Part shown: positions 1-35,244 of the stretch, one piece after another
Layout of the letters: each line of letters starts with the position of its first letter
Position numbering within the stretch: the stretch's first letter is position 1
Translations under genes and position numbers: made by a program
Source: Ceratorhiza oryzae-sativae
Lineage: Eukaryota > Basidiomycota > Agaricomycetes > Cantharellales > Ceratobasidiaceae
Reading direction: 5' to 3'
NCBI GenBank assembly: GCA_030998015.1
Contig: JARWMV010000013.1
Coordinates: 1-64,000, forward strand
DNA length: 64,000 nt
The notes under the pieces: generated by a model
Told to the model about the DNA's origin: nothing
Seen by the model: only the letters and a program-made list of their open reading frames with translations
Databases searched by the model: none

Positions 1-1821
1 TTGCTTGCAATTGTTAGGTCCTTAGAGCACTGGAGGTTATACCTAGAATGGACAGAGGAACCTATTGTGATATACACTGACCATAGGAACCTCCAGTACT
101 GGCAAAATGCCCAGATGTGGAATAGAAGGCATGCCAGATGGTATCTCACTCTGGCACCCTTCAATTTTCAGATTGTGTATAGACCAGGGAAACTCTCACA
201 GAAGCCAGATGCCCTTTCCAGAAGGAGCGACCATGGGGATACCCCTATGGAACCACAGATCATGATTCCAGAAGAAAGGTTCATAGGTTTCATGGCAGAA
301 GTACAGGGGAATTTCTGGGAAGAGCTTAAAGAAGCTCAGGAAGAAGACAAATCTATCAGATCCTTAAGGCTGAGTGTGGCAAATAAAGAACAACTACCGC
401 CCTCAGTACAGAAGGAATTTAGACAGTATGAAATGAAGGAGGGCCTATTAAGGTATGACGATAGGCTCTACATCCCGGATGACAAGGACTTGAGGTTGAG
501 TCTCCTTGAGGAGTGCCATGACGCCCCAGTGGCAGGTCATCAGGGACAAGCCTGAACACTAGAATTACTATCAAGGGATTACTATTGGCCAGGAATGAAG
601 GCCCAAGTAAACCGATATGTGGAATCTTGTGAAACATGTCAAAGAAGCAAAGGACACAAACAAGGCACTCCCCTGAAGTCCTTACCAATCCCATGGAAAC
701 CATGGGCAGATGTTGCATATGATTTCATTCTCAAATTACCTGTCTCAAAGGGGTACGACAGTATCTTGACAGTTGTAGATCACTTCTCCTGGCAGGCCCA
801 TTTTGTACCATGTCTGGAGAGCACCAATGCAGAAGAACTGGCAGAAATATTCATAAGGGAGGTATGGAGACATCACAGGACCCCAGAAACCACTGTCTCA
901 GACTGAGGGCCAACCTTTAACAGCCAATTCCTAAAAGCCCTATACAAAGGAATTGGGACAAAGCCCAGATTCTCCACTGCTTTCCATCCAGAAACAGATG
1001 GTCTGTCGGAAAGGACAAATCAATGGGTAGAAGGGTTCTTAAGAACCTTCTGCAATTATAGACAAGATGATTGGGTAAAATGGTTACCCATTGCCAAATT
1101 CTGCCATAACAACCATGTAATCACTACAACAGGACAAACCCTGTTTGAAACAGTATATGGAAAAAACCCAAGATGGGTTGTCCAAGAGGGAGAAGAACCA
1201 TCTGAGGCACCTGCTGCAGACAACATGCGTAATCAAATGGAAAAGGTATGGGATGAGGCAAGAGCCTCAATGGAATTACACCAACAAATGGAAAAAAAAG
1301 GGAGGGAATTCAAGGTAGGAGACAAGGTTTGGCTGCTCCTAACAAACCTCTTGTCCAAGAGACCCTCCAAGAAACTGGACAACCGAAAAGGGGGGCCTTT
1401 TGAAATCACAGAAAAGATCTCATCCCATGCATATTGCCTGGACCTACCTAAAACCATACGTGTACACAATGTATTCCATGTAAATCTCCTCTTGCCATTC
1501 ACAGAAGATAAAGACTTCTGAAGAAGGCAGGCCAAACCACCACCAATCATAACGGAAAAAGGAGAGGAGGAATACAAGGTGGACCACATTGCAAATTATG
1601 AATGGCAGAATGGCAAGCTGTTTTACCAAATCAGATGGAAGGGCTACGACCCAATAGAAGACACAATGGAACGTGCCAGCAAGTTTGCTGACATGAAAGA
1701 GGTTCTAAATGACTTGCAAAGGTGCTTACCAGATGCACCAATGCCAGTCAAGACAAGTCAGCACTCAGGTGACTTGAAAGGCAGGCCAAAGAGAACCAAA
1801 CGAGGATCTGGAAAGCTTTAA
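1..1821 (+). pseudogene. Element A pol, 3' part: RNase H, integrase, chromodomain (three in-frame stops)
   Basis: One reading frame runs to the stop at 1819-1821, broken by TGA at 553, 904 and 1519. It starts inside RNase H (motif around YTDHRNLQYW) and passes through the integrase zinc-binding module (paired His, then CETCQRSKG). The integrase core follows with Asp in AYDF, Asp just before the stop at 904 and Glu in NQWVEGF. A GPF/GPY-like module and a chromodomain (YQIRWKGYDP) end the protein. Copy F has CGA at the codons matching the stops at 904 and 1519, so those stops are C-to-T changes at CpG. RT and the earlier domains lie outside the window. The protein cannot be made in full from this copy. 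Confidence 0.9.
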
Positions 1822-1907
1822 AAAGAGCCATCCAGGATACCCAAGAAAGGCCAGAGCCCACTCTACCACCTCACTTGCACCACAACACACCTGCAAAACC
1901 CCAAAAC

Positions 1908-2766
1908 ATGCCTTTCATCACTCACCCAGTTGCACATCCCAACCATTACACACCACTTGCTGAAAATCAGGTGGCCCCACTTTGGCAGCCACCCACCACC
2001 AGGTGGCCAGCACCCTACCCTGGCAGGGAAAATTGTCCTAAACCAGGGATGTACTGCTCCAGTGTGGAAGACGCCCAGAGGTACGCCGAACAACTGTTGC
2101 CAGGGGCTAACCTAGTGTACATCCCAAAGAAGTTAAGGGATGAAAGGAACTGGATTGACAATGACAAGTACCTGGATCCCAGGTTAGGGGTCCTGACATG
2201 GCATGGAAGCCAGAAGCCAACAACAAGAAACACCTTGTTAAGAACACCGATGTATGTCGTCAACAATATTGTGGGACCAACAGTCGATGTATGTCGTCGA
2301 CAATATTGTGGGACCAACAGTCAATGTGGTGACCAAGGCAGCAAGACAACAGAGGAGGGCCACAGGCCAAATGGCAGACAGAGGGGACTGGGAGGTGGAG
2401 CGCCAGGCAAAGGCATTGCTGGAAGAATGGAAGTTGACACCAGCTGCACCGTATGTGGGACTGCTCGAAGCAACTACCACTGATGAGATGTTTACTGCTA
2501 TCAGGACAAAGCAGGCAAACATGAGCAACTTCCAAAATTGGGTGAAGGTGCACCCAAACAAAAACACCAATTACGACACTGATGTGACGAGCCTTACATC
2601 AAGCCTAGAATCACTCGTTGTGGCTGAGGAAGAAGCCAAGCCAGAAATAAAGGAACCCACCCTGGACCCAGCTGCAGAGGAAGCCAAACAGGACTGGGAC
2701 TGGTGGGAAAACAAGCTTGTCAAAGCTCTGGAGGAGGTGCCACTGTTGGAACCAACCCCCATATGA
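1908..2766 (+). pseudogene. Element A ORF-P: accessory protein of unknown function, frameshifted
   Basis: ORF-P starts about 87 bases after the pol stop, on the same strand. I chose the ATG at 1908 because it is shared by all three copies (MPFITHP in F). The product is about 285 aa: a Pro-rich N-terminus, a conserved middle (MYCSSVEDAQRYAEQLLPG and DPRLGVLTWHG), then a charged, helical, Glu-rich end. I recognise no known domain. In A a 37-bp tandem duplication (2251-2324) shifts the frame, so the second half reads from 2254 to 2766. The copy in D has a CAA-to-TAA stop, and the copy in F has frameshifts near its end. The conserved position, strand and length suggest a real element gene. Confidence 0.6.
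2251..2324 (+). repeat. 37-bp tandem duplication inside ORF-P
   Basis: Two 37-base units (2251-2287 and 2288-2324) differ at two positions, both G/A differences at a CG in one unit. The duplication is absent from copies D and F. A length of 37 is not a multiple of three, so it alone breaks ORF-P in element A. Confidence 0.85.
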
Positions 2767-2847: not shown

Positions 2848-3389
2848 TTACTCTCTATTTTTACGTTTGCCCTTGAGGGGCCGGGTATAGGGCTTCTTGC
2901 CCCTTTTATCCTTCTTATTGGTCTGAACAACTGACTGGGTAGTGGGCTGCAGCCAAGGAGCCTCCCCCCCTGGGAAGTCAGCCATGTAGTTCTGGAAACA
3001 CCCAGAACCAGACGCTGCAAAGGGCGAAGCCTCATCAAACAAGGGAGCAGAGCCCTCCTCGAAGAATTCGGCAAGAGCAGCCTGGTGAGACCGCTCCTCA
3101 AAGGACTTGTAGTCCTGATCAACGAGCACCCAGACACACTCAAGGGTGGCCTCATGGGCCTGACCATCAAGGAGGATGCACTCTTCTACAGAACAAGTTA
3201 GCTACGTGAGAACAACGAAGAACGAACACACGTACCTGGCACCCCACAGAAGAACCAGTCCCCAACACCTCCATAGAAGTCTTCAAGGGAGGCGTTGCAC
3301 ACGGCATCACAGTAGGCGCAGTACTCCCCCTCAGGGAGAGACCAGCAGGTGCAGTCAAGGGGATTGTAGTTAAGGGAAATAACACGCAT
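2848..3389 (-). CDS. Element A gene Q: small spliced antisense protein (163 aa), intact
   Basis: The gene has two exons on the strand opposite to pol: 3389-3236 and 3185-2848, with a 50-bp GT-AG intron (3235-3186, acceptor TTCTGTAG). Joined length is 492 nt, one open frame. The N-terminal half is Cys-rich (CTCWS, then CAYCDAVC) and aromatic, which could bind a metal. The C-terminus is strongly basic (KKDKRGKKPYTRPLKGKRK). No known family was recognised. A capsid-like or DNA-binding role would fit its position opposite a Rep gene, but this is inference only. The same exon phase and intron position occur in D (also intact) and F (one frameshift). The start ATG is 419 bases from the start region of the N-terminal reading frame over the Rep gene, pointing away from it. 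Confidence 0.7.
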
Positions 3390-3851: not shown

Positions 3852-5137
3852 AGGCTAAGTGAAGATGGCTTGAACGTGGGAACACCCCAGCCAAATGAAT
3901 CAAGCGCAGGGCAGAGGTTGGCATCGCCATCGCTGGCACCCTCGGAATCAAGCTGAGCCCCCTCACCCGCTTCTATGCAGCTTACACTGATGGATTGCAG
4001 GTCCGAAGAGCTGACCGAAACCGCACAGGCCCCCTGATTCCGTGTCCAGACCAGGGCAGTGCTGCTGACCTGGTCGAAGCTACACAATCAGCCCTCAAGT
4101 GGGCTTGCTGCCTGATACGAGGCATTCTGCCGACACCGACCCAATCACTGGGCAACCTTAGCCGTGGTTGAACAGCACAACCTGGAGGAGCCGAACTACG
4201 ACCCAACCCAGCGCCTGCATGACCATGCCCTCTCCATCAGTCAGGAACGGAAGGGTGGGTGGAACACGCAGAATGCGGGGTTCTGGGACTTCGAGGGGCA
4301 ACACTCCAACATACAGCCCAAAGACCTCAAGGACGGACCAGGAGGCAACCCAGCAAGGGATGCCTTCAACTATCTCTGGAAGGACATTGGAGCTAATGGC
4401 GAGGAGATAGAGGACCTGATGGCGGGGGACCTGACCTTGGAAAGGTTGGAGGAGATTTTGGTGAAGGGAAAGGGTGGAAAACGGTCAAGGATGGAGGCAG
4501 ACTTGGAGGATGGGATGGAGATTGTTGCCTCAGCAACAAAACAGGAGTACTACCAGGTGTTCAAGCGCCTCCGCCCCCTCCAGATGGTGACAACGTGGAA
4601 CTCGGTACAAGCATATGCTGAGTACACATACAAGGAAGACCGGGGTTGCATGCCTGCAATCCCTGTGGAGTTAGAGGTCCCGGAAGACTGGGAGCACATC
4701 GACCGAGCAGACAGATGGTTTGCCAAGGAGGTGAGAAGAGGGGAAGAGGGGTGCGCCATTGCATCCTGGTGATAGAAGGAGAAACTGGAAAGGGGAAAAC
4801 GGCATATGCACGATCCAAGGGCTGGCACAGCCAGATGTGCAATGTGTGGAATATGGGCAACTTGTCAGAAGATGCTGACATTTGGATCCTGGATGACATG
4901 GTCCAGTCGAATGGGAAGTACTTGCTCAAGGCCCTGAGCCAGTACAAGGTGGACTTCACAGGCAGGTATGCGCATGTGAAATCGATGAAGGTACAGCCAA
5001 CAGTTATTCTGGGAAATAGCCAGTCGGCAATCATGAAATGTTGGTCGGATATAGAGGGGGAAGAAGGGGACTTATGGGTATCAAGAAATGTGGAATGGGT
5101 GTATGCAGGAGGAAAGCCATTCTTTGTATTCCCTTAG
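3852..5137 (+). pseudogene. Element A Rep-like gene (HUH nuclease plus SF3 helicase), decayed
   Basis: The protein resembles rolling-circle initiators of CRESS-DNA viruses. The N-terminal domain shows motif I in AVLLTWSK, motif II as LHDHAL (His-x-His), and motif III as AFNYLWKD (Tyr-x-x-Lys, nicking Tyr). The C-terminal SF3 helicase shows Walker A GETGKGKT, Walker B ADIWILDDM, and motif C ILGNSQSA. The 5' limit is set by alignment with the ATG of copies F and D. Here that codon is AGG. Stops lie near 3963, at 4038 (CGA to TGA) and near 4110, and a one-base loss near 4735 puts the helicase in another frame. The stop is TAG at 5135. The copy is not functional as it stands. Helicase and nuclease are linked by a charged, Leu/Glu-rich stretch. 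Confidence 0.85.
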
Positions 5138-5405: not shown

Positions 5406-5447
5406 ATGTCTCAAGGTCCCCCAAGACATGTCCAAAGGGGGGGATAA
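5406..5447 (+). promoter_or_regulatory. Polypurine tract and upstream hairpin (element A)
   Basis: The purine run AAAGGGGGGGATAA ends next to the LTR start and is the expected primer site for plus-strand synthesis. Just before it, CATGTCT and AGACATG form 7-bp arms of a hairpin. The hairpin is conserved in D; in F one arm has changed. Confidence 0.8.
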
Positions 5448-6116
5448 TGTTATGACCCGTCAAACGGACATAACAAAACAACCAAATATTTCTACAGATT
5501 TATGGCATTTTTCCTAAGCGGAACAAGCCATAAACAAGGTCACGTGACCTCGGCGCTTAGCCGGTGCTTACAGTGGTTACCCTGAACTCGCTCCAGCATT
5601 TCTCTCCATTGTTACTTGGAGTGAGGAGTGAGTTGTCACGTGATCTCAGTGCTTACAGCAGGATCACGTGACCTCAGTGCTTACGGTTGTTACCCTGAAC
5701 TCGCTCCAGCATTTCACTCCATTGTTACTTGGAGTGAGGAGCAAGTTGTCACGTGATCTTGGTGCTTACGGCAGGATCACGTGACCTCAGTGCCTACCCC
5801 TCAGACCTCGTGCAGCTCTATAAGATTTGGAGCCACACAAACTTAAGATGAACAATTACCTAACCCATAGTACTGTACATAACCTACACCTACTGCAGAG
5901 TGTGCTTAGATAATACGTCTGCAGCCACTGCAGCCACAGGTATATATAAGGAGGATAAAGCAAGACTGGACACCTCAGCTTGCTTTATCTTGTCAACCAC
6001 CATAGACCATAGCATACCCTGTAACTAGAACGCTCAATACATACTGCATAGCACCAAACCGTCAACGCAGCCACTACTTAAGTGCTCCACAAGGGAGCCT
6101 CCAGAGGGTCACAACA
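5448..6116 (+). repeat. Element A 3' LTR (669 bp)
   Basis: The LTR begins TGTTATGACCC after the polypurine tract and ends GGGTCACAACA, with terminal inverted bases TGTT/AACA. It contains about two copies of a roughly 100-bp repeat with CACGTG sites (about 5540-5790), a TATA box (TATATATAAGG near 5941) and the self-priming segment AGCTTGCTTTAT about 35 bases downstream. Homologues are the LTRs of F, G and D. Confidence 0.92.
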
Positions 6117-18377: not shown

Positions 18378-19366
18378 TGTCGTGACCCTCTGGAGGCTCC
18401 CTTGTGGAGCACTTAAGTAGTGGCTGCGTTGACGGTTTGGTGCTATGCAGTATGTATTGAGCGTTCTAGTTACAGTGTTTTGCTATGGTCTATGGTGGTT
18501 GACGAGATAAAGCAAGCTGAGGCATCCAGTCTTGCTTTATCCTCCTTATATATACCTGTGGCTGTGGTGGCTGCGGACGTATTATCTAAGCACACTCCGC
18601 AGTAGGTGTAGGTTATGTACAGTACTATGGGTTAGGTAATTGTTTGTCTTAAGTTTGTGCGGCTCCGAATCTTATAGAGCCGTGCGAGTGTCGTGACCCT
18701 CTGGAGGCTCCCTTGTGGAGCACTTAAGTAGTGGCTGCATTGACGGTTTTGGTACTATGCAGTATGTATTTTGTGTTCTAGTTACAGTGTTTGCTATGGT
18801 CTATGGTGGTTGACGAGATAAAGCAAGCTGAGGCATCCAGTCTTGCTTTATCCTCCTTATATATTCCTGTGGCTGCGGTGGCTGCGGACGTATTATCTAA
18901 GCACACTCCGCAGTAGGTGTAGGTTATGTACAGTACTATGGGTTAGGTAATTGTTTGTCTTAAGTTTGTGTGGCTCCAAATCTTATAGAGCTGTGCAAGG
19001 TCCAAGGGTCATGTGACCTTTTTGGACTTAAGCACCCGGCGCTTAATCGCTGATTAAGCGCCGAGATCACGTGACAACTCGCTCCTCGCTCCAGGTAACA
19101 TGGGAGAGAAACGCTGGAGTGAGTTCAGGGTAACCACCAGCGCTTAATCGTTGGTAAGCGCCGAGATCACGTGACAACTCGCTCCTCGCTCCAGGTAACA
19201 TGGGAGAGAAACGCTGGAGCGAGTTCAGGGTAACCACCAGCGCTTAATCATTGGTAAGCGCCGAGATCACGTGATCCTGTTTATGGTTTGTTCCGCTTCG
19301 GGAAAAATGCCATAAATCTGTACAATATTTGGTTGTTAGGTTATGTCTGCTAGGCGGGTCATAACA
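18378..19366 (-). repeat. Element F 3' LTR (989 bp) with an internal 311-bp duplication
   Basis: On the plus strand it starts TGTCGTGACCC and ends GGGTCATAACA. The first 311 bases are repeated from 18689 (TGTCGTGACCC again). Each copy has a TATA box and the AGCTTGCTTTAT segment on the minus strand. Two copies of the roughly 100-bp CACGTG repeat lie at 19020-19270, against four in the 5' LTR. Confidence 0.88.
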
Positions 19367-19664: not shown

Positions 19665-20945
19665 TTAAGGAAAAATAAAAAATGGCTTCCCTCCTGAGTA
19701 TACCCAGTCTACGTTTTTGGATACCCATAAGTCCCCTTCTTCCCCCTCTATGTCCGTCCAACACTTCATTATGGCCGACCGGCTATTCCCCAGGATGTCG
19801 GCCGTACCTTCATTGACTTCACATGAGCATATCTGCCTGTGAAGTCTGCTTCGTACTGGCTCAGGGCTTTGAGCGAGTACTTCCCGTTTGACTGGACCAT
19901 GTCATCCAGGATCCAGATGTCGGCGTCCTCCGACAGATTCCCCACGTTCCAGACATTGCACATCCGGCTATGGGAGCCCTTGGATCGTGCATACGCCGTC
20001 TTCCCAGTTCCTGTTTCGCCTTCGATCACCAGGATGCGATGGCGCACGCCCCTCCCTCTCTTCTCAGCCTCTTCCGCAAACCATCGGTCCGCCCTGTCGA
20101 TGTGCGCCCGGTCTTCTGGGACTTCCAACTCCACCGGGATTGCAGGCATGCATCCCCGGTCCTCCTTATACGTGTACTCAGCATATGCTCGTACCGAGTT
20201 CCACGTCGTCACCATCTGGAGGGGGCGCAGGCGCTTGAATGCCTGGTAGTATTCTTTTTTTGTCGCTGAGGCAACAATCTCCGCCCCATCCTCCAGGTCG
20301 CCTCCGCCCTTGACCTTTTCCTGCCCTTCCCTTCACCAGGATTTCCTCTAACCTTTCCAAGGTCAGGTCCCCCGCCATCAGCTCCTCTACCTCCTCGCCG
20401 TTAGCTCCAACATCCTTCCAGAGGTAGTTGAAAGCCTCCCTTGCAGGGTTGCCTCCTGGTCCGTCCTTGAGGTCCTTCGGCAGGATGTTGGGGTGTTGCC
20501 CCTCGAAGTCCCAGAACCGGGTGTTCTGGGTGTTCCAGCCGCCCTTCCGCTCCTGACTGATGGAGAGGGCGTGGACATGGAGGGGCCGGGCCGGGTCGTA
20601 GTTTGGTTCCTCGGGGTTGTGGCGTTCCACCACCGCCAAAGTCGCCCAATGATTTGGCCGTTGGCGGCAGAACGCCTCGTATCGGGCGACGAGCCCACTT
20701 GAGGGCTGATCGCGTAGCTTCGACCAGGTCAGCAGCACCGCCCTGGTCTGGACGCGGAACCGAGGGGCCGGCGCGGTTTCGGTCAGCTCTTCGGACCCTC
20801 GATCCGTCGGCGTAGGCCGCATAGAAGCGGGTGAGGGGGCTCGGCTTGATACCGAGGGCGCTGGTGATGGCGACGCCGACCTCCGCCCTTCGCTTGATCC
20901 GCTTGGCTGGGGTGTTGCCGCGTTCGATCCATTTCCGCTTAGCAT
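19665..20945 (-). pseudogene. Element F Rep-like gene (HUH nuclease plus SF3 helicase), best preserved copy
   Basis: The ATG at 20945 begins a Ser/Pro-rich N-terminus of about 75 aa. The HUH domain follows with motif I TRAVLLTWSK, motif II PLHVHALS and motif III AFNYLWKD, all catalytic residues present. A charged linker leads to the SF3 helicase with Walker A GETGTGKT and Walker B ADIWILDDM. The stop TAA is at 19665. Compared with copy A, one frame change lies near 20325, between the two domains, and another near 19795 just before motif C. The nuclease domain is thus still open while the helicase needs two frame changes. The family is that of CRESS-DNA virus Rep proteins and their endogenous relatives. 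The role inside a retrotransposon is unknown. Confidence 0.85.
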
Positions 20946-20988
20946 CGTTTACAGTTTTAGAGGTATTTGGGGACTGGGAAGAGAGCAT
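20401..20988 (-). other. Overlapping frame over the Rep N-terminus (element F)
   Basis: From the ATG at 20988 a second frame stays open for 195 codons across the Rep N-terminus and HUH region. Its start is conserved in D (32945, 65 codons) and A (3809, stopped after 17 codons at a former CGA). The first 45 residues carry a basic patch (KRIKRRAE) like a nuclear signal. It may be a separate short protein, or an alternative first exon of Rep. Openness could also follow from high GC content. Confidence 0.3.
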
Positions 20989-21426: not shown

Positions 21427-21958
21427 ATGCGCGTTATTTCCCTTAACTACAATCCCCTTGACTGCACCTGCTGGTCTCTCCCTGAGGGGGAGTACTGCGC
21501 CTACTGTGATGCTGTGTGCGACGCCTCCCTTGAAGACTTCTATCGAGGTGTTGGGGACTGGTTCTTCTGTGGGGTGCCTGGTATGTGTGTTCGTTCTTCG
21601 TCATTCTCACGTAGCTAACTCGTTCTGTAGAAGAGCGCATCCTCCTTGATGGTCGGGCCCATGAGGCCACCCTTGAGCGTGTCTGGGGCTTGTTGATCAG
21701 GACTACAAGTCCTTTGAGGAGCGGTCCACCAGGCCGCTCTTGCCAATTTTGAGGAGGGCTCTGCCCTTGTTTGATGAGGCTGCCCTTTGCAGCTTCTGGT
21801 TCTGGGTGTTTCCAGAACTATATGGCCGATTCCCAGGGGGGGAGGCCCCCTGGCTGTTGCCTGAGAACCGGGCCGGTGGTTCTGCGGCCCGTACTACTAG
21901 GAAGGATAAGAAGGCAAAAAAACCCTATACCCGGCCCCTCAAGGGCAAGAAAAAATAG
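21427..21958 (+). pseudogene. Element F gene Q: spliced antisense gene, one frameshift
   Basis: Exon 1 is 21427-21580 and exon 2 begins at 21631 after a 50-bp GT-AG intron (acceptor CTGTAG), exactly as in A and D. In exon 2 one base is missing near 21690 (WG in place of WVL), moving the rest to another frame that ends at 21958 with the usual basic tail (KDKKAKKPYTRPLKGKKK). Exon 1 keeps the Cys-rich part. No function is assigned. Confidence 0.7.
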
Positions 21959-22038
21959 AAACATTTTGAAATGTATTATTATATGATTATGAAAATTATT
22001 CTTAAGACATTCCAAAAAACGTGTGATAGGCCCGATAA

Positions 22039-22855
22039 TCACAGGGGCTCCAGGGCCAGCAGGGGCACTTCCTCCAGGCGCGCCGCAGCTCATCCTCCCA
22101 TTTGGCCCAATCCGTTTGGACTCCCTCTTGGGGGTCGGGTCCGGGGTTGGTTCCTTTATGTTACTCTCGGCTCCTCCTCCTTCACCACCAGGGACTCCAG
22201 GCTTGCGTGAGGCTCGACATATCTGTGTCGTAACGTGCAGGTTTGGGCGTACCTTCACCCAGTTACGGAAGTCGGCCAAGTTTGCTTCCTTCAACCTGAT
22301 GGCAGTAAACATTTCATCAGTGGTAGTGGCCTCAAGCAGTCCCACATACGGTGCCGCCAGTGCCAGCTTCCACTGCTCCAACAGTGCCTTTGCCCGGCGC
22401 TCCACCTCCCAGTCCCCTCTGTCTGCCATTTGGCCTGTGGCCCTCCTCTGTTGCCTTGCTGCCTTGGTCACCACGTCGACTGTTGGTCCCACGATATTGT
22501 CAACGACATACATCGGTGTTCTTAACAAGGCGTTTCTCGTCGTTGGCTTCCGGCTTCCATGCCATGTCAGGACCCCTAACCTGGGATCCAGGTACTTGTC
22601 ATCGTCGATCCAGTTCCTTTCATCCCTTAACTTCTTTGGGATGTACACTAGGTTAGCCCCTGGCAACAGTTGTTCGGCATACCTCTGGGCGTCTTCCACA
22701 CTGGAGCAGTACATCCCTGGTTTAGGACGATTTTCCCTGCCAGGGTAGGGTGCTGGTCGCCTGGTGGTGGGTGGCTGCCGAAGTGGGGCCACCTGATTTT
22801 CAGCAAGTGGGGTGTAACGGTTGGGATGTGCAACTGGGTGAGTGATGAAAGGCAT
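22039..22855 (-). pseudogene. Element F ORF-P, frameshifted near the C-terminus
   Basis: From the ATG at 22855 the frame is open through the conserved middle (YCSSVEDAQRYAEQLLPG, LDPRLGVLTWHGSRKP, MYVVDNIVGPTVDVV) and the helical part (ALLEQWKLALAAPYVGLLEATT). Near 22225 the frame departs from that of A and D, so the Glu-rich end is lost. By alignment the original stop was near 22039. Function unknown. Confidence 0.6.
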
Positions 22856-22941
22856 GTTTTGGGGTTTCGCAGGTGTGTTGTGGTGCAAGTGAGGTGGTAG
22901 AGCAGGCTCTGGCCTTTCTTGGGTATCCTGGATGGCTCCTT

Positions 22942-24058
22942 TTAAAGCTTTCCAGATCCTTGTTTGGTTCTCTTTGGCCTGCCTTTCGAGTCACTTGAGT
23001 GCTGACTTGTCTTGACTGGCATTGGTGCGTCTGGTAAGCACCTTTGCAAGTCATTTAGAACCTCTTTCATGTCAGCAAACTTGCTGGCACGTTCCATTGT
23101 GTCTTCTATTGGGTCGTAGCCCTTCCATCTGATTTGGTAAAACAGCTTGCCATTCCGCCATTCATAATTTGCAATGTGGTCCACCTTGTATTCCTCCTCT
23201 CCTTTTTCCGTTATGATTGGTGGTGGTTTGGCCTGCCTTCTTCGGAAGTCTTTATCTTCTGTGAATGGCGAGAGGAGATTTACATGGACATGGAATACAT
23301 TGTGTACACGTATGGTTTTAGGTAGGTCCAGGCGATATGCATGGGATGAGATCTTTTCTGTGATTTCAAAGGGCCCCCCTTTTGGTTGTCCAGTTTCTTG
23401 GAGGGTCTCTTGGACGAGAGGTTTGTTAGGAGCAGCCAAACCTTGTCTCCTACCTTGAATTCCCTCCCTTTCTTTTCCATTTGTTGGTGTAATTCCATTG
23501 AGGCTCTTGCCTCATCCCATACCTTTTCCATTTGATTACGCATGTTGTCTGCAGCGGGTGCCTCAGATGGTTCTTCTCCCTCTCGGACAACCCATCTTGG
23601 GTTTTTTCCATATACTGTTTCAAATGGGGTTTGTCCTGTTGTAGCATTTACGTGGTTGTTATGGCAGAATTCGGCAATGGGTAACCATTTTACCCAATCA
23701 TCTTGTCTATAATTGCAGAAGGTTCTTAAGAACCCTTCTACCCATTGATTTGTCCTTTCTGACAGACCATCTGTTTCTGGATGGAAAGCAGTGGAGAATC
23801 TGGGCTTTGTCCCAATTCCTTTGTATAGGGCTTTTAGGAATTGGCTGTTAAAGGTTGGCCCTCGGTCTGAGACAGTGGTTTCTGGGGTCCCGTGATGTCT
23901 CCATACTTCCCTTATGAATATTTCTGCCAGTTCTTCTGCATTGGTGCTCTCCAGACATGGTACAAAATGGGCCTGCCGGGAGAAGCGATCTACAACTGTC
24001 AAGATACTGTCATACCCCTTTGAGACAGGTAATTTGACAATGAAATCATATGTGACAT
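22942..24058 (-). pseudogene. Element F integrase (partial) and chromodomain
   Basis: Begins at the integrase core (VTYDFIVKLPVSKGYDSILTVVD), where the solo LTR E2 joins it at 24059, so the zinc-binding domain is missing. The Asp of SDRGPTFNSQF and the Glu of NQWVEGFLR are present. A one-base loss in a C run near 23377 shifts the frame before the GPY-like part. The chromodomain (YQIRWKGYDPIEDTM) ends at 22942. A six-base repeat adds His-Val to VFHVHVN. The start of the open frame at 24083 lies in LTR sequence and is not a natural start. Confidence 0.85.
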
Positions 24059-25363
24059 TGTTACAGGTTAGGGTACACTTCAATATCTAGAGCTTAAGCA
24101 AATGTAGATATGTTAGTATACACTAATCGTACTCAATACTTCTTAGACTAGAGTCAGAAGGCTCAAAGTAGTTGCAATGCAATCAAGTAACGCTCAAGGT
24201 AGTCTTAATCTTTCACAGTGTAAACTGACTAATTTATAGGTATAAAGAGCAAGACTACTATGGTCAGGTTCCCTTAGATATCTAAAAGGTAGTTCAGCCC
24301 TAGTCGCTTGGACTAACTGATACTAATCTTAATACTAGGCTTAAGCGATAGCTTATAGGATAGATGGTGGGCTGCCTAATGCGTGTACTTCCTCAGCTAC
24401 AGGTACTTAGATTTCCTCTAATAGCTGGTACTTAATGTCATGCTCAATCAGGCAATATTGTATCCTTATATATCTCTGTATATAAGATACAATGAATCAG
24501 ACAGTATATAACTAATATGGTACTTTATTCCTCAGTACTAGTTATATAAGAAATCACACACAGACAAGAGAAATAGAAAGAGAAAAGAAACCAATAACTG
24601 GTCTGGGTTGAGTAGTGAAGGGAAGGTGGTCTGGAAGGGCCTCAGAGGAGGTCCTTTTATACCCTGAGGAGGGCATTCCAGAGCCAAATAGATACATGCA
24701 TGCCAGTGCGATCATCAAAAGAGGGTACTGCTATACTTGGGGTACACCCTAGCCCAGTATAGGATAAAAGAGTAAAGACAGGGTGTGGATCAAAGGCATT
24801 GATGCATCTGAGACCTGCTATTGGCTTGTAGATCATATTATCATAGTATATACATGTAATGAATGGAGGCTACATCTCAGTGAGTCATAAAGTGAGTCAG
24901 AGAAGCTTCTGGATCAATTTGGGAAGCTCTCCTGACTCACTGGAGTCATTAGATCTTGATTGATGGTCCAGTAAGATTCTAATGATCTTCGGGCCATTCC
25001 GGCGCGAGGATCCGGTGGATCGCGACGATCTTCGGGCAGCAGATACCGCCGAAGATTGGCTATCGATAGAGCACAGGATCGCTTTGATAGCGTAAGCGGT
25101 TGCCGAGATATGAGCGGTGCGAAGTTGTAATCAATATCTCCTGATAAGAGGAATTATCGCAACCTCTGTATCTCTCTGAGATCTTATCGTAAAAACTTAA
25201 TAAAATATGCGTTGGAGAGTGGGAATTTTGTACTATTTAATGAAACAGAAAATAGTACAATTCAGAGCGCATACAAATTCGAGTATTTCACAATTTAATT
25301 ACAGAGGCATCGCTTGTTGGCAGAGCAGACTAAAATAATAGAAAATGTTAGTGATCCATAACA
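24059..25363 (-). repeat. Solo LTR E2 (1305 bp), no target duplication
   Basis: Reverse copy of the LTR of element C, with terminal TGTTA and TAACA. The flanks are GACAT on the left and CCCTA on the right, so there is no target duplication. On its right lies the protease of F and on its left mid-integrase, so RT, RNase H and the start of integrase of F are gone. Confidence 0.9.
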
Positions 25364-25722: not shown

Positions 25723-27558
25723 TTAGTTTTCCGACTCAGAGCTGCTTTCTTCCTCAACTTGTCTGCTGGCCTTCCCTTGTATCTTAGCTTTGTCGTAGGT
25801 CCACTGGCCTCGGCACTCCTTCAGGACATGCCCTGATTTACTGCATTTGATACAGAGTCCTTCTTTCCTTCGCCTGTCCTTTTCGCTGTTTGGTATCCTT
25901 ACCATGTTGTTGGTTTGGGTATTCCCCTGTTTGCTGCTGGTCCCTAAAGGCTTGTTCCCTCCTTGTTTGTATTTCGCTGGTGCCCAGGTTGAATTTGATG
26001 AGTTGCTGGTCCTTGTATTCATTTTCTGGTTTGCAAACTGCATGTCATCCATTTTGCAGGCAAAGTCGATTAATTGATCTAAGGTATATGATGGACCTTC
26101 AGCCTCATTTGCCAGTACTTCAATCCTTAAGATCTCTTGTCGTACTTCAGGTTTTAACCCTTCCCTGAATTGGTCCTTGACGGCTTCCTGGTTCCAGTCT
26201 ACCTCTTGGATCAGGATCCGGAATTGGGTAGCATAATCCAATGCACTCTTGGTCTGTGTTAATTTCCTTAGTTTCCGGATGGTCTTTTCCTTTATGACTG
26301 GGTCATTAAAAGCATCCAGGAATCCCTTCCTGAAATCCTTCCAGGGTGCAAGAATACCTGTGTGTTCGCCTGCTAATAGTTTCCGGCGGTAAGGTTGTGC
26401 CCAGTTTGCTGCTTCCCCATCTTCCATGTTCATTAGCACAGCAGATATCTTTTTTCGGTCATCAAAGGCTGATTCGTCATAGTCAGCAAAGAAAAGTTCC
26501 ATGCTGATTATGAAGTTCTCTGCTTCCTTCCCCTTTTTCCCATTAAATTTGCTGGGTCTCCCTAGTCTTGCCTCCTTAGGAGTGTGGTTTGCAGCAAGGG
26601 TAGGTTGGTTTGCTTGGGATGGAGGTTCTGTTCGGGGTCTTATTGTGGACTCAGCCTGGAAGGTTCTTCCCAGAAAGGGTGTTCGTACTGGGGAGGCTGA
26701 GGGGGATCGTGAGGGGCTTCCTATGACCACCCTAGTTCTTCCCCTGGTTTCTTCTGTCCCTTCCCTTGGCCTTCCTGCTTCAGTGTTTTTCCGGAGCTCA
26801 TTTCCTAGATCGGTTACCCGTTGTTCTAGTGCGATTAGGATCTCCCCTGTGTTTTCGGTTTTCTTCTCTAAGCTTTCAAGCTTTCGCTCTTGCATTCCCA
26901 GTACCCGGTTTATTTCCATGGAGATGTCCTTTAATTCTTTTATCAGGTTTCCCATTTCTGCTTTTAGGTCGTCCTGGTTCTTTGCCACATAGAGGACATT
27001 TTTGTTGGATGTTTCCATAGACCTTACCATCCAGTCCACATTTCCTTCTTGTCGGGTTAGTGATATTTGACACTGATTTATACCTGTGATTGCCTTTTCT
27101 AGTTCCCTATGATTATTGTCTCTAAGTTCCTTGAGCCCTGCCCTGATGGCTGTGGCAATGGTGTGAATAGGGTTGGCAGTGGCTATGGTTCCGGGACCTG
27201 GCTGGGGTTGTGTCCTTGCCTCTTCCGCCAAGGCTGTGCCTTGTTCGTATATGGTTCGGGTCATATCTTCTACCTCATCCCTCTCTGGGTTTGAGATATC
27301 TTCTGGGTCTGGATTTGTCAGGTGAATTGGCGGTTGAGGGCTGCGGAGTGGTATTCCCCCTATTTCCCCTCCCAGGATGGGGGCCCGAGTGGGGTTGGGT
27401 TGAGCCACTGGTCGTGGGTTTTGTTGCAACCCCCCTGGCATTCCTTGGAGGGTCTCATCTGGGTTACCTTCAGCCTCTGGGGAAGCAATGGGTTTGGGTG
27501 ATTGTGGCCTACTATTTGCCACTCTGCTTTGAGATCGAGTTTGTGGTCTCTGTGACAT
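25723..27558 (-). CDS. Element F Gag polyprotein (611 aa), intact
   Basis: Single open frame from the ATG at 27558 to TAA at 25723. A Pro/Gln-rich N-terminus (about 1-90), a coiled coil around residues 170-260 (DLKAEMGNLIKELKDISMEINRV), an Arg/Ser-rich linker, and then a retrotransposon capsid domain (about 330-500) with GRPSKFNGKKGKEAENFI and FADYDESAFDDRKK. Near the C-terminus a CCHC zinc knuckle (CIKCSKSGHVLKEC) is followed by an acidic Ser/Glu tail. Gag coats the RNA in virus-like particles. The N-terminal extension with coiled coil is long compared with the Gag of Tf1. This is the only intact structural gene among the family A copies here. Confidence 0.9.
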   Translation of the reverse strand: MSQRPQTRSQSRVANSRPQSPKPIASPEAEGNPDETLQGMPGGLQQNPRPVAQPNPTRAPILGGEIGGIPLRSPQPPIHLTNPDPEDISNPERDEVEDMTRTIYEQGTALAEEARTQPQPGPGTIATANPIHTIATAIRAGLKELRDNNHRELEKAITGINQCQISLTRQEGNVDWMVRSMETSNKNVLYVAKNQDDLKAEMGNLIKELKDISMEINRVLGMQERKLESLEKKTENTGEILIALEQRVTDLGNELRKNTEAGRPREGTEETRGRTRVVIGSPSRSPSASPVRTPFLGRTFQAESTIRPRTEPPSQANQPTLAANHTPKEARLGRPSKFNGKKGKEAENFIISMELFFADYDESAFDDRKKISAVLMNMEDGEAANWAQPYRRKLLAGEHTGILAPWKDFRKGFLDAFNDPVIKEKTIRKLRKLTQTKSALDYATQFRILIQEVDWNQEAVKDQFREGLKPEVRQEILRIEVLANEAEGPSYTLDQLIDFACKMDDMQFANQKMNTRTSNSSNSTWAPAKYKQGGNKPLGTSSKQGNTQTNNMVRIPNSEKDRRRKEGLCIKCSKSGHVLKECRGQWTYDKAKIQGKASRQVEEESSSESEN

Positions 27559-27679: not shown

Positions 27680-28559
27680 TGTTGTGACCCTCTGGAGGCT
27701 CCCTTGTGGAGCACTTAAGTAGTGGCTGCGTTGACGGTTTGGTGCTATGCAGTATGTATTGAGCGTTCTAGTTACAGTGTTTTGCTATGGTCTATGGTGG
27801 TTGACGAGATAAAGCAAGCTGAGGCATCCAGTCTTGCTTTATCCTCCTTATATATACCTGTGGCTGCGGTGGCTGCGGATGTATTATCTAAGCACACTCC
27901 GCAGTAGGTGTAGGTTATGTACAGTACTATGGGTTAGGTAATTGTTTGTCTTAAGTTTGTGTGGCTCCAAATCTTATAGAGCCGCGCAAGGTCCGAGGGT
28001 CATGTGACCTTTTTGGACTTAAGCACCCGGCGCTTAATCGCTGATTAAGCGCCGAGATCACGTGACAACTCGCTCCTCGCTCCAGGTAACATGGGAGAGA
28101 AACGCTGGAGCGAGTTCAGGGTAACCACTGGCGCTTAATCGTTGGTAAGCGCCGAGATCACGTGACAACTTGCTCCTTGCTCCAGGTAACATGGGAGAGA
28201 AACGCTGGAGCGAGTTCAGGGTAACCACCAGCGCTTAATTGTTAGGTAAGCGCCGAGATCACATGACAACTCGCTCCTTGCTCCAGGTAACATGGGAGAG
28301 AAACGCTGGAGCGAGTTCAGGGTAACCACCGGCGCTTAATTGTTAGGTAAGCGCCGAGATCACGTGACAACTCGCTCCTCGCTCCAGGTAACATGGGAGA
28401 GAAACGCTGGAGCAAGTTCAGGGTAACCACCGGCGCTTAATCATTGGTAAGCGCCGAGATCACGTGATCCTGTTTATGGTTTGTTCCGCTTCGGGAAAAA
28501 TGCCATAAATCTGTACAATATTTGGTTGTTAGGTTATGTCTGCTAGGCGGGTCATAACA
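27680..28559 (-). repeat. Element F 5' LTR (880 bp)
   Basis: Plus-strand borders are TGTTGTGACCC and GGGTCATAACA. It has a TATA box (TATATATAAGG on the minus strand, near 27855), the self-priming segment, a perfect palindrome GGCGCTTAATC-3-GATTAAGCGCC (28029-28053), and four units of a roughly 100-bp repeat with CACGTG (about 28055-28460). Confidence 0.9.
28055..28460 (-). repeat. Tandem repeat of about 100 bp, four units, in the 5' LTR of F
   Basis: Units start at GATCACGTGACAACTCGCTCC or a close variant (28057, 28157, 28258, 28357). Each has CTCGCTCC and GGAGCGAG arms around a short centre, and a TCACGTGA-type E-box. The 3' LTR of F, the LTR of A and the LTR of G have two units; the LTR of D has one. 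Confidence 0.85.
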
Positions 28560-29209: not shown

Positions 29210-31002
29210 ACTGGAGGCTATACCTAGAAGGGACAGAAGATCCTATTGTGATATACACCAACCATAGGAACCTCCAGTACTGGAAAAATGCCCAGATGTG
29301 GAATAGAAGGCATGCCAGATGGTATCTCACTCTGGCACCCTTCAATTTTCAGATTGTGTATAGACCAGGGAAACTCTCACAGAAGCCAGATGCCCTTTCC
29401 AGGAGGAGTGACCATGGGGACACCCCTATGGAACCACAGATCATGATTCTAGAAGAAAGGTTCATAGGTTTCAAGGCAGAGGTACAGGGAAACTTCTGGG
29501 AGGAGCTTAAAGAAGCTCAGGAAGAAGACAAATCTATCAGATCCTTAAGGCTGAGTGTGGCAAATAAAGAACAACTACCACCCTCAGTACAGAAGGAATT
29601 TAGATAGTACAAAATGAAGGAGGGCCTATTAAGGTATGACAATAGGCTCCACATCCCAGATGACAAGGATTTGAGGTTGAGCCTCCTTGAGGAGTGCCAT
29701 GATGCACCTGTGGCAGGTCATCAGGGACAAGCCCAAACACCAGAATTACTATCAAGGGATTACTACTGGCCAGGAATGAAGGCCCAAGTAAACCAATATG
29801 TGGAATCTTGTGAAATGTGTCAAAGGAGCAAAGGACACAAACAAGGTGCTACCCTGAAGCCCTTACCAATCCTGTGGAAACCATGGGCAGATGTCACATA
29901 CAATTTCATTCTCAAATTACCTGTCTCAAAAGGCTACAACAGCATCTTGACAGTTGTAGATTGCTTCTCCTGGCAGGCCCATTTTGTACCATGTCTGGAG
30001 AGTACCAATGCAGAAGAACTGGCAGAAATATACATAAGGGAGGTATGGAGACATCACAGGACACCAGAAACCACTGTCTCAGACCAAGGGCCAACCTTTA
30101 ACAGCCAATTCCTAAAGGCCCTATACAAGGGAATTGGGATAAAACCCAGATTCTCAACTGCCTTCCATCCAGAAACCAATGGATTGTCAGAAAGATCAAA
30201 TCAATGGGTAGAAGGATTCTTAAGAACCTTCTGCAATAATAGACAAGATGATCAGGTAAAATGGTTACCCATTGCCAAATTCTGCCATAACAACCATGTA
30301 ATCACTACAACAGGACAAACCCTGTTTGAAACAGTATATGGAAAAAACCTGAGATGGGTTGTCCAAGAGGGAGAAGAACTGTCTGAGGCACCTGCTGCAG
30401 ACAGCATGTGTAATCAAATGGAAAAGGTATGGGATGAGGCAAGAGCCTCCATGGAATTACACCAACCAATGGAAAAGAAAGGGAAAGAATTCAAGGTAGG
30501 AGACAAGGTTTGGCTGCTCCTAACAAACCTCTTGTCCAAGAGACCCTCCAAGAAATTGGATAACCAAAAAGGGGGTCCTTTTGAAATCACGGAGAAGATC
30601 TTGTCCCATGCATATTGCCTGGACCTACCTAAAACCATACATGTACACAATGTATTCCATGTGAATCTCCTCTTTCCATTCACAGAAGATAAAGACTTCC
30701 AAAGAAGGCAGGCCAAACCACCACCAATCATAACAGAAGAAGGAGAGGAGGAGTATGAGGTGGTCCACATTGCAAATTATGAACGGCAGAATGGTGAGCT
30801 GTTTTACCAAATCAGATGGAAGGGCTACAACCCAATAGAAGACACAATGGAACGTGCCAGCAAGTTTGCTGACATGAAAGAGGTTCTAAATGACTTGCAA
30901 AGGTGCTTACCAGATGCACTAATGCCAGTCAAGATGAGTCAATCCTCAGGTGACTTGAAAGGCAGGCCAAAGAGAACCAAACAACAATCTAGAAAGCTTT
31001 AA
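29210..31002 (+). pseudogene. Element D pol: RNase H end, integrase, chromodomain (one stop)
   Basis: Frame is open except for TAG at 29605 (CAG to TAG). From 29614 to the stop at 31000 it is continuous: zinc-binding module (HQGQAQTPELLS, CEMCQRSKG), integrase core, GPY-like part, and chromodomain (YQIRWKGYNPIEDTM). The first catalytic Asp is changed: VTYNFI here against AYDFI in A, a G-to-A change. The codon that is CGA in F and TGA in A (DKDFRRR) is CAA here, the other product of CpG decay. The enzyme would be inactive. Confidence 0.87.
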
Positions 31003-31088
31003 AATGAGCCATCCAGGATACCCAAGAAAGGCCAGAGCCCACTCTACCACCACACTTGCACCATGATACAGCTGCAAAGTCTCAAAAC

Positions 31089-31910
31089 ATGCCTTTCATC
31101 ACTTGCCTGGTTGCACATCCCAACCATTACATACCACTTGTTGAAAATCAGGTGGCCCCACTTTGGCAGCCACCCACCACTAGGTGGTCAGCACCCTACC
31201 CTGGCAGGGAAAATTGTCCTAAACTAGGGATGTATTGCTCTAGTGTGGAAGATGCCCAGAGGTATGCCAAGCAACTGTTGCCAGGGGCTAACCTAGTGTA
31301 CATACCAATGAAGTTAAGGGATGAAAAGAACTGGATCAACAATGACAAGTACCTGGATCCCAGGTTAGGGGTCCTGATATGGCATGGAAGCTGGAAGCCA
31401 ACAACAAGAAAAGCCTTGCTAAGAACACCAATGTACATTGTTGACAATATTGTGGGACCAACAGTTGACGTGGTGGCTGCAGCAGCAAGACAACAGAGGA
31501 GGGCCTCAGGCCAAATGGCAGACAGGGGGGATTGGGAGGTGGAGTGCCAGGCCAAGGCATTGCTGGAAGAGTGGAAGTTGACACTGGCCGCACTGTATGT
31601 GGGACTGCTTGAGGCAACTACCACTGGTGAAATGTTTACTGCTATCAGGACAAAGCAGGCAAACATGAGCAACTTCTAAAATTGGGTGAAGGTGCACCCA
31701 AACAAAAACACCAATTACAGCACAGACATGACAAGCCTTATGTCAAGCCTAGAATCACTGGTTGTTGCTGAGGAAGAAGCAAAGCCAGCAATAAAGGAAC
31801 CCACCCTGGACCCAGCTGTTGAGGGAGCCAAACAGGACTGGGACCAGTGGGAAAATGAGTTTGTTGAAACTCTGGAGGAGGTACCACTGTTGAAACCAGC
31901 CCCCATATGA
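31089..31910 (+). pseudogene. Element D ORF-P, one stop
   Basis: From the ATG at 31089, open to TAA at 31677 (CAA to TAA), then open in the same frame to 31910. Apart from this stop it is full length (about 273 aa). It serves as the reference for the end of ORF-P: an acidic, helical tail (EEEAKPAIKEPTLDP, DWDQWENEFVETLEE). No known domain. Confidence 0.6.
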
Positions 31911-31992
31911 CCACTTTGCCTCTCATGGACCCTTTTCTCAAATGTATAAGAGCCTTTATTTTTACATGTCAAACCTAATGCATTTTTACTCT

Positions 31993-32525
31993 CTATTTAC
32001 ATTTGCCCTTGAGGGGCCAGGTATAGGGCTTCTTGCCCTTTTTATCCTTCTTATTGGTCTGAACAACCAACTGAGTGGTGGGGTGCAGCCAAGGGGCCTC
32101 CCCCCCTGGGACATCAGCCATGTAGTACTGGAAACACCCAGAACCAGATGCTGCAAAGGGCAAAGCCTCATCAAACAAGGGGGCAGAGCCCTCCTTGAAG
32201 AATTTGGCAAGAGCAGCCTGGTGAGACCACTCCTCAGAGGACTTGTAGTCCTGATCAATGAGCACCCAGATGCACTCAAGGGTGGCCTCATGGGCCTGAC
32301 CATCAAGGGGTATGGGCTCTTCTACAGAGCAAGTAAGTAATGTGAGACCAACAAAGAAGAGGCATATGTACCTGGCACCCCAAGGAAGAACCAGTCCCCA
32401 ATGCCTCCATAGAAGTCTTCAAGGGAGGCGTTGCACACAGTGTCACAGTAGGCACAGTACTCCCCCTCAGGGAGAGACCAGCAGGTGCAGTCAAGGGGAT
32501 TGTAGTTGAGGGTAGTAACATGCAT
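31993..32525 (-). CDS. Element D gene Q: spliced antisense protein (160 aa), intact
   Basis: Exon 1 is 32525-32372 and exon 2 is 32321-31993, with an intron of 49 bp (donor GTACAT, acceptor TTCTACAG read on the minus strand as CTGTAG). The joined 483 nt are one open frame, though the pol, ORF-P and Rep of this copy are all broken. Exon 1 has the Cys-rich block (CTCWS, CAYCDTVC). Exon 2 ends in a basic tail (KKDKKGKKPYTWPLKGKCK). It differs from the copy in A by a few residues, many of them from CG-to-TG or CA changes. Function unknown. Confidence 0.68.
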
Positions 32526-32944
32526 AGTAAAGACAGCATGAGGAAGGGAAACAACAAAACCACAGGCATTAAAAGATCACAGTGCAACATGATAACTTGC
32601 ACAAACATCAAAACAAAGTCTGGTCAGGTGACAGAAACAGACATGTGACCATCTGCCAGAAAACAAACAACAAAGCATGGGAATCACATGACCTAGCCTA
32701 GTCAAATGAATATACACTATCCCCTAACTACTGGAGGGGTTGGAGAGCAGACACTGACCAAAGTGGAGGAGCAGAGGCCCCAAGTGTAGTGAGGAATAGG
32801 GCCAATGCAGGGGAACACAAGAACAGCACCCCTCAGAGATGTGTCATAACCAGCACAAGCCTACATCAGGAAACCACATGACCACAACAACCAGAGAAGG
32901 TATATCTAGGGGACACCCTTGGGGGTGAAAGGGGCTATCATCTC
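32526..32944. promoter_or_regulatory. Divergent intergenic region between Q and Rep (element D)
   Basis: Same length as in A (419 bases). The hairpin is kept with one loop change (CCCCT/AACTACTGG/AGGGG near 32721-32739), and the palindrome beside it has lost one arm base pair. Confidence 0.5.
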
Positions 32945-32987
32945 ATGCCCTCCCCACAAGATGCATCTACCTCTAAAAACACCAATG

Positions 32988-35100
32988 ATGCTGAGCAAAG
33001 ATGGCTTGAACATGGGAACACTCCATCCAAACAAATCAAGCACATGGTGGAGGTTGCCATCACCATTACTACCACCCTTGGGATCAAGCCAAGCCCCATC
33101 ACCTGCTTCTACACAACCTATGCCAACAGATTGCAGGTCTGAAGAGCCAACTGAAACTGCACCAGCCCCCCAATTCTGTGTCCAGACCAGGGCAGTGCTG
33201 CTGACCTGGTTGAAGCTATGCAATCAGCCCTCAAGTGGGCTTGTTGCCCAATACAAGGTTTTCTGCTGCCACTGGCCCAATCACTGGGCAACTTTAGCCA
33301 TGGTCAAACAGCACAGCCCAGAGGAGCCGAACAACAACCCAACCCAGCCCCTGCATGCCCATGCCCTCTCCATTAGTCAGGAACAGAAGGGCAGATGGAA
33401 CACCCAGAATGTGGGGTTCTGGGACTTCAAGGGGCAACACCCCAACATATGGCCCAAAGACCTCAAGGACAGGCCAGGAGGCAACCTGGCAAGGGACACT
33501 TTCAACTATCTCTGGAAGGACGTTGGAGCTAATGGTGTTATGGATCACTAACATTTTCTATTATTTTAGTCTGCTCTGCCAACAAGCGATGCCTCTGTAA
33601 TTAAATTGTGAAATACTCGAATTTGTATGCGCTCTGAATTGTACTATTTTCTATTTCATTAAATAGTACAAAATTCCCGCTCTCCAACGCATATTTTATT
33701 AAGTTTTTACGATAAGATCTCAGAGAGATACAGAGGTTGCGATATTTCCTCTCATCAGGAGATATTGATTACAACATCGCACCGCTCATATCTCGGCAAC
33801 CGCTTACGCTATCAAAGCGATCTTGTGCTCTATCGATAGCCAATCTTCGGCGGTATCTGCTGCCCGAAGATCGTCGCGATCCACCGGATCCTCGCGCCGG
33901 AATGGCCCGAAGATCATTAGAATCTTACTGGACCATCAATCAAGATCTAATGACTCCAGTGAGTCAGGAGAGCTTCCCAAATTGATCCAGAAGCTTCTCT
34001 GACTCACTTTATGACTCACTGAGATGTAGCCTCCATTCATTACATGTATATACTATGATAATATGATCTACAAGCCAATAGCAGGTCTCAGATGCATCAA
34101 TGCCTTTGATCCACACCCTGTCTTTACTCTTTTATCCTATACTGGGCTAGGGTGTACCCCAAGTATAGCAGTACCCTCTTTTGATGATTGCACTGGCATG
34201 CATGTATTTATTTGGCTCTGGAATGCCCTCCTCAGGGTATAAAAGGACCTCCTCTGAGGCCCATCCAGACCACCTCCCTCTACTCAACCCAGACCAGTTA
34301 TTGGTTTCTTTTCTCTTTCTATTTCTCTTGTCTGTGTGTGATTTCTTATATAACTAGTACTGAGGAATAAAGTACCATATTAGTTATATACTGTCTGATT
34401 CATTGTATCTTATATACAGAGATATATAAGGATACAATATTGCCTGATTGAGCGTGACATTAAGTACCAGCTATTAGAGGAAATCTAAGTACCTGTAGCT
34501 GAGGAAGTACATGCATTAGGCAGCCCACCATCTATCCTATAAGCTATCGCTTAAGACTAGTATTAAGATTAGTATCAGTTAGTCCAAGCGACTAGGGCTG
34601 AACTACCTTTTAGATATCTAAGGGAACCTGACCATAGTAGTCTTGCTCTTTATACCTATAAATTAGTCAGTTTACACTGTGAAAGATTAAGACTACCTTG
34701 AGCGTTACTTGATCGCATTGCAACTACTTTGAGCCTTCTTACTCTAGTCTAAGAAGTATTGAGTACGATTAGTGTATACTAACATATCTACATTTGCTTA
34801 AGCTCTAGATATTGAAGTGTACCCTAACCCGTAACAAATGGTGAGGAGATAGAGGATTTGATGGCAGGGGACCTGACCTTGGAAAGGTTGGAGGAGATTT
34901 TGGTGAAGGGAAAGGGCAGAAAACAGTCAAGGATGGAGGCAGACTTGGAGGACAGGACAGAGATTGTTGCCTCAGCAACAAAACAGGAGTACTACCAGGT
35001 GTTCAAGCACCTCCACCCCCTCCAGATGGTGACAACATGGAACTCAGTATGAGCGTATGCCAAGTACATGTACAAGGAAGACCAGGGTTGCATGCCTCAC
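32988..35100 (+). pseudogene. Element D Rep-like gene, split by solo LTR E3, helicase deleted
   Basis: The ATG at 32988 (MLSKDG) corresponds to the Rep start of F. The HUH domain is open: AVLLTWLK, PLHAHALS and the motif III region TFNYLWKD, where LTR E3 (33536-34836) interrupts. The gene resumes at 34842 with the linker (LTLERLEEILVKG) and stops at a TGA (35050). At about 35097 the sequence jumps to the tRNA-like unit, so about 650 bp with the whole SF3 helicase are missing compared with A. Nonfunctional. Confidence 0.85.
33536..34836 (+). repeat. Solo LTR E3 (1301 bp) with TSD AATGG
   Basis: Family E LTR with TGTTATGG and GTAACA ends, flanked by AATGG at 33531-33535 and 34837-34841. The perfect 5-bp duplication shows normal integration followed by LTR-LTR recombination. 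It retains the CpG-rich block seen in the LTR of C. Confidence 0.95.
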
Positions 35101-35185
35101 CTCATTGAACAATACCAAATCAGCTGAAAGGTTGTTGGTTCAAGTCCAGCACCCTTAACCTCCTTGTTGCATGAGATTCCTTTTG
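35098..35185 (+). other. Truncated tRNA-like unit (element D)
   Basis: Only the right half remains: B box as GGTTCAAGTCC (CpG lost), then ACCCTTAACCTCC and GCATGAGATT. The left half went with the helicase deletion. Confidence 0.5.
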
Positions 35186-35240: not shown

Positions 35241-35244
35241 ATAA

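Follow-up and report, generated by a model that had tools for sequence, protein, structure and literature searches.

A Ty3/gypsy retrotransposon family of Ceratorhiza oryzae-sativae with a Rep-like gene under purifying selection between pol and the polypurine tract

A 64,000-nt stretch of contig JARWMV010000013.1 of Ceratorhiza oryzae-sativae (the window; whole genome 48.8 Mb in 253 contigs) contains three copies, A, F, and D, of a Ty3/gypsy chromodomain long terminal repeat (LTR) retrotransposon that carries a gene resembling the replication initiator (Rep) of CRESS (circular Rep-encoding single-stranded) DNA viruses. It is very probable that a chromodomain Ty3/gypsy family of a Ceratobasidium-group fungus long ago gained a cassette of gene X, antisense gene Y, and Rep between pol and the polypurine tract (PPT), and that selection has kept the cassette there. 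The gene order of the family is pol, X (sense), Y (antisense and spliced), Rep (sense), PPT, and LTR. Its pol encodes protease, reverse transcriptase (RT), integrase, SH3, and chromodomain (Pfam); LTR pairs bounded by TG..CA, a PPT, and 5-bp target duplications (GTCAC in F, CTCAC in copy L032) are present.

A sequence-only reading of the window had placed a Rep-like gene in the same pol-PPT interval of all three copies, and a search with the N-terminal frame of F (20178-20948, minus strand) finds it there: A matches at 3849-4484 (plus; 79% identical, E 1e-109) and D at 32988-33536 (plus; 69% identical, E 5e-79), and in each copy Rep lies between the chromodomain/integrase end and the AAAGGGGGGGATAA|TGTTATGACC boundary of PPT and LTR start. 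That reading had also seen HUH endonuclease motifs in all three; these are conserved across the family, but D has LLTWLKL instead of LTWSK. Rep is present as described, but all three genes are broken: A (3852..5137, plus) has three TGA codons in its N-terminal half and a frame change near 4700-4770, F (19665..20948, minus) is spread over three overlapping frames, and D (32988-35100, plus) is interrupted by an insert and has lost its helicase end. Two further genes in the interval had been overlooked, namely X (plus; A 1773-2766) and the spliced, antisense Y (A 3389-2848).

Genome-wide, the F query (148 of 360 candidates scored) finds Rep at 149 places at least, and many of these have an open frame of 429 amino acids; an integrase census scored 91 of 1113 candidates, and the comparison of gene order drew on 149, 91, and 150 listed places. 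Y is divergent from Rep and within 3 kb of it at 132 of the 149 Rep places, and a same-strand integrase from the 91 listed places lies within 12 kb upstream of 80, within 3 kb for 72 of these. Seen from the integrase, 87 of the 91 scored places are followed by Rep at no more than 12 kb or by Y at no more than 6 kb. The remaining four were candidates for cassette-free sister elements, and all turned out to hold X and Y, two of them (L041 and L042) also Rep; at least part of the cassette is found downstream at 91/91. The PPT-LTR junction occurs 164 times in the genome (up to 3 mismatches; control, 0) and stands 3' of Rep in all 30 best loci (up to 4 errors). When the first 100 junctions are compared with the 105 Rep places on the same contigs, 88 have Rep within 4 kb upstream, and 12 have no Rep among the places compared; for 68 of the 88, the distance to the end of the matched N-terminal half is 936-953 bp.

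These counts bear out the proposal that a CRESS-type Rep is carried as a standing part of the family, whose elements do not generally lack it. Among the matches listed, none to Rep, X, or Y falls in the three distantly related Ty3 families of the window (integrase 31-50% identical); in one of them the integrase ends at 41515 and an LTR repeat starts at 41524. A single acquisition, as further proposed, agrees with the finding that L041 and L042, the deepest subfamily found, have X, Y, and Rep, but a close relative without the cassette, which could root the event, was not found. Named relatives of Rep are hypothetical proteins of Ceratobasidium sp. AG-Ba, 395, 428, 394, 414, and UAMH 11750; all organism-named matches are from Ceratobasidium, the others being unnamed or 'hypothetical protein' entries from other sources.

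Geminivirus-like elements with 37-bp terminal inverted repeats (TIRs) are described for Tuber in the available part of PMC3198968, and an independent Rep-bearing DNA transposon could likewise sit within the retrotransposon. Such nesting is barely credible for this family: the orientation of Rep is the same and its place nearly the same in most of the 88 copies, Rep lineages differ precisely by a sense intron (see below), Rep is under selection together with X and Y, and no TIRs or other matching inverted repeats are found at the ends of Rep. In L031 a single weak 22-nt inverted pair (73%) lies on either side of the cassette; L041 has no equivalent.

Rep and Y are under purifying selection, and X is so less strongly. 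For Rep, the ratio of nonsynonymous to synonymous divergence (dN/dS) between copies, a comparison suggested by the sequence-only reading, is well below 1: its median is 0.21 (range 0.07-0.57) over 78 pairs of 13 open frames drawn from 31 loci, a set in which decayed copies are not represented because the 18 other loci were excluded. Pairs that involve L034 or have dS above 0.12 give 0.07-0.31. The set for the other genes comprises 6 X, 11 Y exon-2, and 34 Y exon-1 stretches, some copies being entered twice under two locus names; in pairs with dS above 0.15 the median dN/dS is 0.22-0.23 for both exons of Y and 0.25 for X (10 of 15 pairs), with a pooled pN/pS of 0.48 for X. The three broken window copies and the TGA stops in many genome copies are what would be expected if Rep were a functionless passenger or fossil; this is very unlikely in view of the low dN/dS in the more diverged pairs, the retained catalytic residues, and the conservation of Rep, like that of integrase, in L041.

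L041 represents a deep subfamily, and its identity to the main family is 70% for Rep over residues 87-429 (46% over an N-terminal stretch), 66% for integrase, 40% for X, and 35% for Y exon 2; Rep is therefore, over most of its length, constrained as much as integrase. In a Rep tree that is midpoint-rooted for drawing only, L041 is placed, with weak support (86/80), beside Ceratobasidium AG-Ba, 395, and 428 and not with the copies of its own genome, which suggests that the Rep lineages may predate these species.

Within Rep, L041 and L042 contain a GT...AG intron (61 nt in L041, 3585-3645), located between TG and G TAC of SGLVA-W-Y-K-A-F-C, a junction read by eye from the codons; the main family has SGLVARYEAFC and is intron-free. 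That the main family lacks exactly this sense intron is the footprint expected of copying from spliced RNA. At the protein level, four metagenome proteins (P0029, P0030, P0046, and P0062) have an insertion at the same site whose residues fit an unspliced intron. Two further proteins (P0013 and P0033) have in-frame 18-residue insertions between the HUH and helicase halves that resemble a second unspliced intron, at roughly the site of the Rep introns of mastreviruses and genomoviruses. The intron of Y, about 50 nt long, is present in 33/33 rows among the loci with the exact exon-1 word, to which the count is limited (29 copies; four rows duplicate copies under two names). Its donor is mostly GTATGT, some rows having GTACGT or GTACAT instead, with a branch-like CTAAC (CTTAC in D and L034) and the acceptor TGTAG (CGTAG in L023). 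Splicing should spare this intron in the genomic RNA, to which Y is antisense.

The residues expected of an HUH nickase joined to a superfamily 3 (SF3) helicase are nearly invariant across the family. In the HUH part, motif 1 (FLTxxx) is represented by L73 and T74 (61/63) and W75 (63/65), motif 2 (HxH) by H124 (87/87) and H126 (85/87), and motif 3 (YxxK) by Y175 (87/91) and K178 (86/93); in the helicase part, Walker A, Walker B, and motif C are represented by K317 (91/92), D349 (94/96), and N390 (85/86). Between motifs 2 and 3 the sequence RFWDFEGxHPNI, presumably a form of the GRS motif, is retained (F145 89/91, G150 94/94, N154 91/94). In fold searches with a low-confidence predicted model, the Reps of geminiviruses and genomoviruses rank first or nearly so. 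Against a Rep of this kind stands the best score with the Pfam families Gemini_AL1 and Gemini_AL1_M, 19.5 bits versus a cut-off of 24. PF00799 has no match in the genome, the controls being likewise silent; Foldseek on PDB and a PHROGs search gave nothing informative, and PDB sequence searches gave a replication-associated protein chain at E 0.54 only. A scan of IMG/VR with the Rep alignment returned 19 pattern matches, none confirmed, and one with a GRS DNA pattern gave 5 candidate matches, from a collection that yielded no CRESS Reps at all. We infer that Rep works as an HUH nickase joined to an SF3 helicase, and that its expression is driven by a promoter of its own, located in a conserved block upstream.

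This block, about 160 nt of non-coding sequence between Y and Rep (A 3548-3715, plus), reaches 69-84% identity when L041 is compared with A or F by 40-column windows, as against mostly 36-61% in the flanking windows, from which the start of the Y coding sequence (75-79%) and a single window of 11 columns depart. It contains TCAC[AG]TGA words and a hairpin, CCCCT-AACTACCGG-AGGGG (5-bp stem, 9-nt loop), that is complete in 8/10 rows; covariation gives no support to a larger structure (double changes at 1/28 pairs). A second copy of a 61-nt repeat lies beside the block in 7/12 aligned copies and also in L031. Its function may be that of a bidirectional promoter, of a Rep site, or of both. In L012 it is partly duplicated, in diverged form, within one copy.

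The divergent arrangement of Y and Rep across the block resembles a geminivirus/genomovirus layout. Together with the putative GRS motif, and with the fungal host of the related virus SsHADV-1 (available part of PMC3198968), it raises the alternative that a whole CRESS-type virus or DNA plasmid was captured (Rep, Y, an intergenic origin, and perhaps X), with a cassette that can still exit as a small circle and a retrotransposon that serves as its carrier. This is unlikely. X, a sense gene of about 270 amino acids from the first Met, and Y have no Pfam family above cut-off, and the relatives of X are from Ceratobasidium AG-Ba only. A TANTATTAC-type nonanucleotide is absent from the window, and in the elements checked a single one lies in the integrase region of L041. 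The cassette is not flanked by any convincing repeats, and no free form was found in IMG/VR, a weak test for the reason given above.

The most likely mechanism, put forward tentatively and for LTR circles already raised by the sequence-only reading, is that Rep cuts one strand at a site within the conserved block when the element is present as nuclear DNA, in the form of one- or two-LTR circles or tandem copies, and so launches rolling-circle replication. The added DNA would supply more templates for transcription, recombination, or reinsertion. More tentatively still, the family could be an element with two replication modes, one through RNA and reverse transcription and the other a Rep-driven, rolling-circle amplification of circular DNA from the site between Y and Rep.

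Differences between copies point to methylation-driven or RIP-like (repeat-induced point mutation) change. Of the 31 substitutions between the LTRs of L032, 27 are CpG-directed C-to-T changes, and among Rep copies of the F subfamily 1244/1628 transitions are CpG-directed, beside 99 transversions (summed over 45 pairs). Such change would also account for the TGA stops, and it makes silencing pressure likely. Under this pressure Rep, with Y, could be a counter-defence factor or regulator that keeps the host from methylating cytosines in the element or from repressing it, or that represses its own promoter, with nicking as a secondary activity. Precedents are the lowering of plant maintenance methyltransferases by geminivirus Rep and C4 (available part of PMC6338049) and the regulatory role suggested for antisense extra genes of plant retrotransposons (available part of PMC7264820). 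The HxH, tyrosine, and Walker residues are nearly invariant, however, and are not needed for a purely regulatory role; counter-defence is possible but doubtful, and comes next in likelihood after the launching of rolling-circle replication by Rep.

In copy A the end of pol, with the SH3/p58 part of integrase and the chromodomain, lies at 907..1821 (plus; Pfam SH3_Tf2-1 9e-19, Chromo 3.1e-06). The X frames, taken from stop to stop (1773..2766), shift near 2240-2290 at a short tandem duplication. Y (2848..3389, minus; ends set by eye) consists of exon 1 (3389-3236), a GT-AG intron (3235-3186), and exon 2 (3185-2848). The PPT is at 5434..5447 (plus), and the 3' LTR (TGTTATGACCC...GGGTCACAACA) at 5448..6116 (plus). 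D, whose integrase is 90% identical to that of A, is a 5'-truncated element (29210..35258, plus) with integrase/chromodomain at 29608-31002 (plus), X from 31008 (plus), Y exon 2 at 32337-31990 (minus), and the PPT and 3' LTR start at 35245.

Copy F is a defective element, on the minus strand, that sits inside the LTR of another copy and has both LTRs. Its 5' LTR (27680..28559) adjoins the target duplication GTCAC at 28560-28564; its 3' LTR (18378..19366), with the PPT just upstream (junction match 19357-19382), adjoins GTCAC at 18373-18377. Between them lie gag (25723..27558; Retrotrans_gag, Ty3_capsid), a remnant of integrase and chromodomain (22942..24059; RT was not found), the X frame (21818..22990), and Y on the plus strand (21427..21958, approximate ends; intron about 21581-21630), exon 2 of which has a damaged frame. 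L032 (1187-8001) has two 882-bp LTRs that are 96.5% identical, with CTCAC flanking both; it is internally deleted, having lost most of pol and retained the X-Y-Rep cassette, both LTRs, and the target duplication.

A solo-LTR-like sequence of about 1.3 kb (TGTTATGGATC...GTAACA) is present in the window at 33536-34836, 24059-25363, and 15681-16988; the first splits Rep of D, with a 5-bp duplication (AATGG), and the second splits pol of F. Between Rep and the PPT lies a tRNA-like hairpin (A 5271-5365, plus; L031 2959-3095; L041 4772-4897) that is retained to the deepest subfamily, with arms of 36-41 nt (75-76% complementary), a loop of 54-55 nt, and a tRNA-like B box, which in A reads GGTTCGAGTCC; neither ARAGORN nor Rfam recognises the hairpin. 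Two probable host genes, both on the minus strand, encode a TPR-rich (tetratricopeptide repeat) protein (46042-48123; TPR-S, TPR_12) and a Sec16-like protein (60654-63260; TPR_Sec16).

RNA-copied elements and rolling-circle DNA replicons are usually held apart; here they are joined in a retrotransposon family that keeps an initiator under selection through deep splits. The family allows the exaptation of a DNA-virus-type gene by a retrotransposon to be tested, and among its extra genes between pol and the 3' LTR there is one of recognisable type. The literature searched, with bioRxiv and most subscription papers outside its scope, yielded no LTR retrotransposon that carries a CRESS-type Rep. 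A comparison of Rhizoctonia genomes (PMC7884421), whose strains JN and LY match the protein names RhiJN and RhiLY, describes LTR retrotransposons; its main text is without the terms virus, gypsy, or 'replication initiat'.

Several known systems resemble the family in part. The Reps of Geminiviridae and Genomoviridae share with it HUH motifs 1-3, a putative GRS-like motif, the SF3 Walker A, B, and C motifs, and a divergent gene across an intergenic hairpin block; in contrast, the family Rep falls below Pfam cut-offs, has no canonical nonanucleotide in the window and no recognised capsid gene beside it, and resides in an LTR retrotransposon. Chromoviruses have the same gag, the same pol with protease, RT, integrase, and chromodomain, and the same TG..CA LTRs, PPT, and 5-bp target duplications, but the family has three extra genes between pol and the PPT, one of them a Rep. 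The plant elements Grande, RIRE2, and Retand have extra sense and antisense genes between pol and the 3' LTR that are retained in most copies, but their antisense proteins have no recognised relatives, whereas one extra gene here is a Rep (available part of PMC7264820). The geminivirus-like transposon of Tuber melanosporum is also a fungal mobile element with a multi-copy Rep; unlike the present family, it has TIRs and transposase-like open reading frames, is not described as RNA-copied, and has Reps nearest to that of SsHADV-1, so far as the available part of PMC3198968 extends. Insect retrotransposons that have taken up viral SF1 RNA helicases likewise acquired a viral replication domain, but in their case it is an RNA-virus helicase, partly fused to the polyprotein, and not an HUH initiator with a gene of its own (available part of PMC6338049).
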